Assembly (NCBI GenBank): GCA_021161465.1
Contig: JAGHAM010000004.1
Coordinates: forward strand, 1 to 64,000
DNA from: Candidatus Iainarchaeum sp.
GTDB lineage: Archaea > B1Sed10-29 > WALL01 > JAGHAM01
Direction of reading: 5' to 3'
Length of the DNA: 64,000 nucleotides
Shown: positions 2,596 through 57,865 of the stretch, in pieces
Numbering within the stretch: the first letter of the stretch is position 1
Layout: each line of letters begins with the position of its first letter
Made by a program: the position numbers and the translations under genes
The notes under the pieces: generated by a model
Databases searched by the model: none
The model's input: the letters and a program-made list of their open reading frames with translations, nothing else
What the model was told of the DNA's origin: nothing

Positions 2596-2747
2596 TCAAC
2601 AAAAATAAGAAGTTTTATAACTGTTAGATTGTGCGCCAGTAGTCTAGTTTGGTAGGACTTAGCCCTCCCAACCACCCCTTTTGCTAACGCAAAAGCGTTG
2701 ACGGAAAAGGGTTGAGGTGAGAGGCTACGACCCGGGTTCAAAAAGAA

Positions 2748-2823
2748 GGGTTGCACCCTTTCTAAACCTGCATGGGGATGGAATATCATCCGTATCCCGA
2801 TTGTAGGAAGATTGGTTGCACCA
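2748..2823 (+). repeat. Intron repeat block A, copy in tRNA-Gly
   Basis: This 76-nt segment, from GGGTTGCACCC to GGTTGCACCA, is identical base for base to the reverse complement of 53033-53108 in the T-loop intron of tRNA-Ile. It contains one complete CCTGCA-hairpin-GTAGG module. Confidence 0.95.
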
Positions 2824-2896
2824 AAGGGGTTTCACCCCCTTTACCCCTGAGAGGACATAGGTAAATCTTATGTCCGCTTGTGGGGAGGGTTGCACG

Positions 2897-2968
2897 CGTT
2901 CTAGACCTACAGTCTAGAACGAATCTCTAAACCTGCAGGGGTGGCATAAAGCCACCCGATACGCAGGA
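2897..2968 (+). repeat. Intron repeat block B, copy in tRNA-Gly
   Basis: This 72-nt segment contains the palindrome GTTCTAGAC...GTCTAGAAC and a CTCTAAACCTGCA module closing in ACGCAGG. It matches the reverse complement of 52948-53019 in tRNA-Ile at 69 of 72 positions. The three differences fall in the tip of the GGTGGC/GCCACC hairpin. Confidence 0.95.
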
Positions 2969-3075
2969 TGGAGGTTGCAAGCATTTGAGCATTTTAGACC
3001 TATGGTCTTGATGACTCTCTAAACCTGCATAGGATTGCTATGCAATCCGTCAGGTGAAATTCCCGGCTGGCGCAC

Positions 3076-13307: not shown

Positions 13308-13376
13308 GCTTCTGCACGACAGACAGTTTTTTTAATCCTGATTCTCACTAATAACTGGCAAGCTGGGGTGGCGGAA

Positions 13377-13431
13377 GTTCACGAGCAGGCAAGCTCGAGA
13401 AGTTCAGTTCACGAGCAGGCAAGCTCGAGAA
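13377..13431 (+). repeat. 25-nt direct repeat in the D-loop intron of tRNA-Ser
   Basis: A 25-nt unit starting GTTCACGAGCAGG and ending GCTCGAGAA occurs at 13377-13401 and again at 13407-13431. The copies are identical, with a 5-nt spacer. Each contains a CGAGC...GCTCG hairpin. Confidence 0.95.
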
Positions 13432-13458
13432 ACGCAATCCGGTTCAACGCGCCGGCCT

Positions 13459-13692
13459 CGAGTAGCCGCAAAATCGGCTAGCGCTTTAGGCGTCTCACGC
13501 TCCGCGTGAGAGCACCAGGTGTGGCCGTAAAATCGGTTCACGCGAACCGTAAAATCGGTTCACGCTTTGGGTGTTGCGCTACGCGCAAGCACCAGGCGGA
13601 TGATTAAGGACTTAGTCTAAACCTAAGTGAAAAATAACAGGTGCTAGACTTTGTCCAAGTGCCTTACGCTATATGTAAGGCAGGCATCCTGA
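13459..13692 (+). other. Long, repeat-built anticodon-loop intron region of tRNA-Ser
   Basis: The region holds a chain of hairpins: TAGCCG/CGGCTA, CTCACGC/GCGTGAG, TTGCGC/GCGCAA, AGTCTA/TAGACT and GCCTTAC/GTAAGGC. A 19-nt unit (CCGTAAAATCGGTTCACGC) occurs at 13525-13543 and 13547-13565. Two longer related segments (from about 13482 and 13563) share CGCTTT.GG.GT, then a hairpin, then AGCACCAGG. This is consistent with introns inserted into introns. No protein frame is apparent. Confidence 0.75.
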
Positions 13693-13791
13693 AAGCCGGT
13701 GGGCGCAAGCCCGTGCAGGTTCAAACTGTTTCGTCTCCGTATGAAACAGGAAATTCCTGCCCCCAGCGTACCCTTCAACAAACATGTATAC

Positions 13792-31158: not shown

Positions 31159-31246
31159 AAAGAAATCACCATTTGTTCCAAATTTTGCAGTTTATTCTTA
31201 ATAAACCTGCTTCGCTTACACGTAGTAAAAAGGGCCGCGGCCGGGA

Positions 31247-31301
31247 ATTTCCTACCCAACTCACAATCGTGTGTGGGGTTAGGAGGGGCGCAGCCCCTCT
31301 T
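31247..31301 (-). other. T-loop (59/60) intron of tRNA-His
   Basis: This 55-nt intron opens with the GGGGCTGCGCCCC hairpin followed by TCCTAACCCCA. It closes with TTGGGTAGG, which can pair back with the CCTAACCC strand. The opening ~29 nt differ by about one base from the start of the anticodon intron of the same tRNA. Confidence 0.8.
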
Positions 31302-31322
31302 TTTGAACCCGGGCCAGGGGAT

Positions 31323-31409
31323 TTCTGCAAGATGCAGGATTATCGTCTACCCCCCATAGATGGATTGCGTAGCAATCCTCTGGGGTTAGAAGGGGCGCAG
31401 CCCCTCTTT
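31323..31409 (-). other. Anticodon-loop (37/38) intron of tRNA-His
   Basis: This 87-nt intron has the same opening hairpin (GGGGCTGCGCCCC), then TTCTAACCCCAGAGGATTGC, with a GGATTGC/GCAATCC hairpin and a closing CTGCA...TGCAG hairpin. The opening resembles the TCTAAACC modules of the Gly and Ile T-loop introns. Confidence 0.8.
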
Positions 31410-31481
31410 CCACAGTCCCCTATACTAGCCAGGCTATACAACCGCAGCCATAGGTTAATTTTTAGAACAAGGTTGTTTAAA

Positions 31482-52771: not shown

Positions 52772-52805
52772 GTTATTACTCCATTTGTAGGTGGGCGCGA
52801 AGGGA

Positions 52806-53126
52806 CTTTCCACCCCAATAGGGGGTTTGAGGCGCACCAACCTTCCCTGCACACATGGATTTGATAACCTTCTATCTCCATGCAGGTACCCTCTGCAGGG
52901 TTAGAGGTTCGTCCAGACCATAAGTCTAAACGTGTGCACCCTTTTCTTCCTGCGTATCGGGTGGCCTCGTGCCACCCCTGCAGGTTTAGAGATTCGTTCT
53001 AGACTGTAGGTCTAGAACGGGTGCAACCCTCCTGGTGCAACCAATCTTCCTACAATCGGGATACGGATGATATTCCATCCCCATGCAGGTTTAGAAAGGG
53101 TGCAACCCTCCTGGTGCAACCAATCT
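52806..53126 (-). other. T-loop (59/60) intron of tRNA-Ile, 321 nt, modular
   Basis: It is built from the same hairpin modules as the tRNA-Gly T-loop intron: CTAAACCTGCA-hairpin-GTAGG, CTCTAAACCTGCA-hairpin-ACGCAGG, and a degenerate CTCTAACCCTGCAGAGGGTACCTGCA unit. Two copies of a 30-nt link occur (53098-53127 and 53019-53048). There is no protein-coding frame of note. Confidence 0.85.
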
Positions 53127-53127
53127 T
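53019..53127 (-). repeat. 30-nt direct repeat bounding a module in the tRNA-Ile intron
   Basis: The 30 nt reading AAGATTGGTTGCACCAGG and then AGGGTTGCACCC on the minus strand occur at 53127-53098 and identically at 53048-53019. They bracket one hairpin module. The first copy starts at A59 of the tRNA T-loop, so the inserted module may have duplicated its target. Confidence 0.9.
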
Positions 53128-53330
53128 TCGAACCCTCGGCCTCAGGTTATCCTCAGCCACGCTGAGTGTACCAGAACGGGCCTTATAAGACCTGCGCTCT
53201 GACCTGGCTAAGCTACGCGCCCACATTTATGGTTTAGCGCTTTATATATTTAAAACCTACTTTAGTGATTATCTCCTTTATATTCGTTTTACCAGCACTT
53301 TTTTAATGTAGTTAATCTTAATTTTCCCCT

Positions 53331-57698: not shown

Positions 57699-57865
57699 GG
57701 ACGCGTAGCCTAGCCAGGATTGTTCCGTGGCAACAGCTCATGGAATCCTGATAGGGCACCGGCCTTCTAAGCCGGCTATCGGGGGTTCAAAATAAGGAGG
57801 AGGGACACGTTCCCTCCTCCCTTATAAGCCCTTCTCCTTTGCGAGTGAGTTTCCCTCCGCGTCCG
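57699..57865 (+). tRNA. tRNA-Arg (UCU) with D-loop and T-loop introns
   Basis: GGACGCG (57699-57705) pairs with CGCGTCC (57858-57864), and G73 is at 57865. D-stem GCCT/GGGC encloses a ~32-nt intron (about 57719-57750) closed by AGGATT/AATCCT. The anticodon stem CCGGC/GCCGG is intact, with loop CT-TCT-AA and anticodon TCT at 57766-57768. T-stem GGGGG/CCCTC is split by a 60-nt intron (57792-57851) after position 59. That intron is a GGAGGAGGGA/TCCCTCCTCC hairpin plus a tail. The mature tRNA is 75 nt. A TATA-like tttaaac lies upstream. Confidence 0.9.

Follow-up and report, generated by a model that had tools for sequence, protein, structure and literature searches.

What are the hairpin modules that recur inside the long introns of tRNA genes in the first 64,000 nucleotides (nt) of contig JAGHAM010000004.1 of Candidatus Iainarchaeum sp., and how would they be removed? 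A sequence-only reading of this stretch, referred to here as the window, had proposed that each module, set apart from the next by a link, is a small bulge-helix-bulge (BHB) element inserted into an older intron, giving stepwise splicing. Herein, the genome (976,286 bases in 40 contigs) was analysed by reading the whole sequence and searching for tRNAs with a custom tRNA finder. With a probability of about 0.75, the modules are the bodies of a transposing archaeal tRNA intron at position 59/60, in the T-loop, which has spread across most tRNAs, stands in tandem in several genes and would be cut out whole by EndA and RtcB.

The tRNA-Gly(CCC) gene and its tandem intron

ARAGORN found zero tRNAs in the 64-kb window as it stands. 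Once the T-loop insert of one gene was removed in silico, the program called tRNA-Gly(ccc) with a 51-nt anticodon intron. The general layout of one unit of the insert is a hairpin (hairpin A), a UMAA joint and a helix (P4), and the features of the gene are as follows.

2633..3074, plus strand: tRNA-Gly(CCC) gene; exons 2633-2670, 2722-2742 and 3061-3074, introns at 37/38 and 59/60
2671..2721, plus strand: anticodon-loop (37/38) intron, 51 nt, given by ARAGORN on the spliced gene as i(39,51)
2743..3060, plus strand: T-loop (59/60) intron, 318 nt, four tandem units
2744..2807, plus strand: unit 1; hairpin A (AGAAGGG..CCCUUUCU, 2744-2763), AA joint, P4 (2766-2771 / 2803-2807) with apical hairpin
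2808..2885, plus strand: unit 2, diverged; hairpins GGUUGCACC and AAAGGGG..CCCCCUUU, P4 CCCC/GGGG (2844-2847/2882-2885), from sequence and minimum free energy (MFE) fold
2886..2967, plus strand: unit 3; hairpin-A region with a degenerate UCUAGACCUACA copy, then CUAAACCUGCA and P4 (2932-2936/2963-2967), from sequence and fold
2968..3054, plus strand: unit 4, terminal; CUAAACCUGCA at 3019, P4 closing at 3051-3054 and adjoining the exon-pairing UGAA, from sequence and fold

The recurrence of the module is real. Exact copies of CTAAACCTGCA stand at 2762, 2927 and 3019 (plus strand) and at 53094-53084 and 52989-52979 (minus strand), together with a degenerate copy, CTAACCCTGCA, at 52904-52894 (minus strand). 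When up to one mismatch was allowed, CTAAACCTGCA gave 7 matches in the window against 1.7 expected, a count reached in 0 of 100 shuffles, and GGTTGCACC gave 26 against 10.8 expected. Across the genome, CTAAACCTGCA has 19 exact copies and the reversed control pattern has 0; all 19 lie in T-loop introns of tRNAs and none outside tRNA genes. The three units that the sequence-only reading had placed in tRNA-Gly were recovered at the three plus-strand copies, and to these a fourth is added, the diverged unit 2 with its ACCCC/GGGG pairing. The proposed pairing of CCTGC with downstream strands also holds in this intron, the partners being GTAGG (2803-2807), GCAGG (2963-2967) and CAGG(T) (3051-3055). 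In addition, the fold of the T-loop insert is far more stable than that of dinucleotide shuffles (z = -9.85).

The nature of the unit is given by introns that hold only one. The T-loop intron of tRNA-Gly(UCC) is exactly one unit (UUCAAA/AAGAAGGGUUGCACCCUUUCUAAACCUGCAGGGGAUUGUUACGCAAUCCGUAGGUGGAAU/U), in which hairpin A (AGAAGGG/CCCUUUCU) is followed by the joint UAA and by helix P4 (ACCUGC/GUAGGU) with a hairpin at its apex, and other tRNAs are likewise single-unit. One unit is therefore one whole T-loop intron body, and the long introns are consequently head-to-tail arrays rather than nested ones. The links described between units exist as sequence but are not spacers: each is hairpin A, the first half of the same body, and what had been taken for the unit is its P4 half. 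Furthermore, a second sequence family shows the same layout (AUAAGG..CCUUAU, AA, GCCC..) and forms its own tandem arrays in tRNA-Leu, with a 54-nt period. For helix P4, pairing between true partners averages -6.25 kcal/mol, whereas exchanging partners among introns gives -5.22 (sd 0.29; 0 of 500), a difference inflated by relatedness among the introns.

Structure at the splice sites

In tRNA-Gly(CCC), the T-loop intron is bordered by the T-stem (2732-2736/3062-3066), the exon UUCA at 2737-2740 pairs with UGAA at 3055-3058, and a 3-nt bulge, AUU, follows at 3059-3061. More generally, the 3' end of the intron carries YGRA, which pairs with the exon stretch UUCR (T-loop positions 54-57) over the full 4 bp in 29 of 35 introns (null mean 2.1, maximum 10) and over at least 3 bp in 34 of 35 (null mean 8.5, maximum 18), where the null was drawn from random positions in the intron interior. 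Exactly three bulged bases precede the T-stem in 47 of the 51 introns of this genome and its relatives. The helix is further supported by covariation at position 57, with A57 accompanied by U and G57 by C in three genomes: the opposite base is C in 6 of 11 G57 introns and in 0 of 40 A57 introns (Fisher p = 2.6e-5, likewise inflated by relatedness). A clean compensatory change is seen in a genome from another family of the class (G012), whose near-identical introns end in CACGAAA where the exon reads UUCG and in CAUGAAA where it reads UUCA.

Compared with the BHB intron kind, removal of the inserts in silico restores tRNAs recognised by ARAGORN, and the 4-bp central exon-intron helix and the 3-nt bulge at the 3' splice site are both present. 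A strict 3-nt 5' bulge closed directly by the inner helix is absent; the 5' side instead holds an A-rich joint, hairpin A and UMAA before P4. Thus the T-stem, 3' bulge, central helix and P4 lie in one stack with hairpin A in the 5' bulge, which is a relaxed BHB shaped as a three-way junction and not a strict hBHBh'.

Spread across tRNA genes and genomes

A T-loop intron, 13 to 321 nt long, is found in at least 35 of the 39 curated tRNA genes of the genome, and extra sequence upstream of the T-arm in 26 of the 30 genes with a resolved 5' half. The resulting density of at least about 1.5 introns per tRNA gene bears comparison with that of Pyrobaculum calidifontis, the published record holder (71 introns in 46 genes; PMC8450103). 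Three further genes of the window carry related introns.

52793..53222, minus strand: tRNA-Ile(UAU) gene, called tRNA-Ile(tat) by ARAGORN once spliced; T-loop intron of 321 nt (53126-52806) built of the same units as that of Gly(CCC), with a 77-nt block identical to the Gly intron
31234..31448, minus strand: tRNA-His gene whose anticodon-loop and T-loop introns each hold a single, shorter unit
57699..57864, plus strand: tRNA-Arg(UCU)-like gene with a T-loop intron of one unit, which belongs to the second sequence family (AUAAGG..CCUUAUAAGCCC); the anticodon was read from the sequence, and ARAGORN labels the spliced gene as Ile

The three further units, one of them degenerate, that had been seen in tRNA-Ile are thus present on the minus strand near 53 kb, as are the shortened relatives in both tRNA-His introns (31448-31234). 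The 77 identical bases, within which unit 1 of the Gly(CCC) intron falls, are common to the introns of two non-homologous tRNAs 50 kb apart. Similarly, tRNA-Gly(UCC) and a tRNA gene from a second contig share a 67-nt stretch that is identical throughout, and different arrays are built from the same unit types, in the same order. The module also occurs at 37/38, not only in the tRNA-His described here but in tRNA-Asp and tRNA-His of G001, from another genus of the family, and in tRNA-Ile of G016. Near-identical introns in different tRNA identities and at more than one position are what characterises transposed introns of the Thermoproteales kind, and both are seen here.

Beyond this genome, the element was found in G001, the nearest relative that carries it, and in G012, whose copies retain UUGCA as the loop of hairpin A, as well as CCUGCAGG. 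More distant forms were met in the Micrarchaeota metagenome-assembled genomes (MAGs) CG1_02_47_40 and B9_G16. From its presence in G001 and the distant forms in Micrarchaeota, it follows that the host is a DPANN-type archaeon. A virus was rejected as carrier of the unit, no exact match having been found among 2.9 million viral contigs, and bacterial matches in a broad scan of named genomes, none of which by eye stood in tRNA context, were treated as chance.

Several other observations concern the tRNA genes of this genome. Contigs C2, C5, C20, C25 and C34 end inside or near tRNA introns with these repeats, so the assembly breaks at the elements, leaving some tRNA genes in pieces. Another dispersed intron family (CCGCAAAATCGG..., 7 exact copies) is found, for example, at C33 14111-14349, C2 9613-9846 and C28 255-454, all on the minus strand; in the tRNA genes examined its members are anticodon-loop introns, and in tRNA-Ala(UGC) it stands twice in tandem. 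Within the window, the T-loop of a tRNA-Ser-like gene at 13368-13768 (plus strand) holds a hairpin intron. Close to the D-arm of this gene, the 25-nt sequence GTTCACGAGCAGGCAAGCTCGAGAA occurs as two exact tandem copies separated by 5 nt, and CCG(C/T)AAAATCGG modules recur in an insert in the anticodon region.

Splicing enzymes and proposed mechanism

Genes for both EndA (PF01974, E = 9.7e-32) and RtcB (E = 2.2e-170) are present. The EndA gene (contig C16, 15155-15634, minus strand) encodes a single catalytic subunit of about 170 amino acids, whose full length is colinear with the EndA of M. jannaschii. A PF02778 search for a second EndA subunit found this same gene only, and a weak PF01974 match on contig C38 was rejected as such a subunit because it reads by eye as a TruD-like pseudouridine synthase. 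Genomes of the class with an EndA match have essentially one catalytic-type gene each, with two in G016. The introns are predicted to be cut by this EndA at the bulges. Alpha4 EndA has been tied to strict BHB motifs and relaxed introns to alpha-beta or epsilon2 enzymes (PMC12397907, PMC4033280). About 7% of the genome is unassembled and may hold a beta subunit, which could also have escaped the search; alternatively, the alpha-type enzyme may be more tolerant here.

Computation establishes where the intron lies, how its units are built, the exon-intron pairing and its compensatory changes, the blocks common to several tRNAs, and the EndA and RtcB genes; cleavage, ligation, one-piece release and the route of spread are inferred. 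Pairing of exon UUCR with YGRA, between the T-stem and P4, would leave the 3-nt bulge at the 3' splice site and the A-rich bulge with hairpin A at the 5' splice site. The intron would have spread through most tRNA genes by copying at the DNA or RNA level, and several of them hold head-to-tail arrays of the body, with lengths from 1 to about 4 units. The EndA tRNA-splicing endonuclease would most likely cut each array at its two outer ends only, after which RtcB would join the exons and the whole array would leave as a single piece.

Several findings weigh against this explanation. The 5' bulge holds a hairpin, some 3' bulges could be taken as 4 nt long, and some homologous introns (L095, L100 and C35+63318) have no P4, while the relatedness among introns that inflates the P4 and position-57 statistics must also be set on this side. 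Moreover, the sole EndA found is alpha4-like, though non-canonical tRNA introns are extremely numerous in this genome.

Alternative explanations

The nested arrangement first suggested, in which each unit is an intron of its own and EndA takes the units out one after another, either ahead of the outer intron or while that intron is being removed, was addressed by scanning 13 long introns (>100 nt) for strict BHB motifs (3-nt bulge, 4 bp, 3-nt bulge) against dinucleotide shuffles. None was found in the 318-nt Gly(CCC) intron, where shuffles average 0.9, and the other long introns were mostly at chance level, with C6+7952 as the sole best-score exception. Internal units are unable to form the motif that serves at the real intron ends, as they have neither UUCR upstream nor a T-stem strand downstream, and in single-unit introns the unit boundaries are those of the whole intron body, not of an insertion inside one. 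Nested strict-BHB introns were accordingly rejected: the modules are structured and intron-derived, with the named pairings, but the view of each as a small BHB intron lodged in an older one is not supported. Some features do favour recursion in a broader sense. Type II internal units (C6+11937, C39+3028) still end in a complete UGGAAAG motif that is homologous to true 3' splice ends, and the MFE fold of unit 1 of the Gly intron contains half of a motif (UCU-AAA-CCUGC/GUAGG-A-AGA), with a 3-nt 5' bulge, AAA, between the UCU/AGA and CCUGC/GUAGG helices. Archaeal tRNAs with close introns that need ordered removal are also known (PMC8450103). On balance, nested introns are considered quite improbable, and relaxed, stepwise cutting of the units would likewise be unlikely.

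The remaining alternatives concern how the element spread and how it leaves. One ordinary BHB intron may have been enlarged internally by local tandem duplication and gene conversion; in this view the unit is itself immobile and owes its spread solely to recombination among tRNA genes. Recombination alone would suffice to yield block sharing, and the arrays share blocks in the same order with gain and loss of units, while contigs break inside such genes. Exon-anchored gene conversion, however, hardly explains the module in tRNAs with unrelated exons, nor does it sit easily with the fact that tRNA-His here carries the module at both 37/38 and 59/60 and that G001 and G016 have it at 37/38; this origin is regarded as possible, at less than even odds. 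Going further than the transposing intron preferred here, the element could be a minimal RNA-level mobile element that, after excision by EndA and RtcB, re-enters T-loops, including occupied ones, and so builds tandem arrays, the alpha4-like EndA processing three-way-junction sites, possibly unit by unit; we hold this bolder version to be unlikely. A small self-splicing ribozyme, group I-like or other, is suggested by the conserved three-way junction, the insertion in tRNA and the known group I introns in DPANN rRNA (PMC6125680). Yet a body of 60-75 nt is too short for a group I core, the EndA and RtcB genes are present, and an Rfam scan of ten loci up to E = 1 returned only tRNA and RNase P matches, with no group I intron, self-cleaving or other known ribozyme family, nor did any appear at the gathering threshold, which leaves this explanation very hard to credit.

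Significance and comparison with known systems

These results bear on the open question of how archaeal tRNA introns spread. They describe a young, highly amplified intron family, of which one genome offers empty sites as well as copies, and single units as well as tandem arrays, for direct comparison; compensatory changes are visible where the intron meets different host tRNAs. They also challenge the rule that alpha4 EndA goes with few, strict-BHB introns. In addition, only 7 tRNAs in the genome passed the Rfam tRNA model which, together with the absence of ARAGORN calls in the intact window, means that such genomes would be wrongly scored as lacking tRNAs.

Twintrons, or nested introns, are mostly described from organelles. 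They resemble the present arrays in having intron-derived sequence inside an intron; here, however, no internal splice signals were found, and the units lie head to tail rather than inserted within one another. The inner element with its own complete splice motif that marks a twintron was absent, as strict BHB, from the Gly intron, and in the other long introns mostly did not exceed shuffles. Closely spaced introns with ordered removal (tRNAscan-SE 2.0, PMC8450103) are alike in that several introns share one tRNA and BHB formation may depend on order, but those introns occupy different tRNA positions, whereas the units here stand at one insertion point with no exon between them. The relaxed BHB or bulge-helix-loop (BHL) introns cut by the epsilon2 EndA of ARMAN-2 (PMC12397907, PMC4033280) share the setting of ultra-small archaea, the non-canonical positions and the incomplete BHB; unlike ARMAN-2, no epsilon2 or alpha-beta enzyme was found here, only the roughly 170-amino-acid catalytic subunit. 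Finally, the transposed tRNA introns of Thermoproteales, as far as they are described in the accounts that cite them (Fujishima et al. 2010, via PMC4090602, PMC4033280), likewise combine several introns per gene with large-scale intron transposition. In contrast to those, the present family belongs to a DPANN-type archaeon with an EndA that is alpha4-like rather than alpha-beta, is dominated by position 59/60, and carries a conserved extra hairpin that turns the splice site into a three-way junction, with its bodies arranged in tandem.
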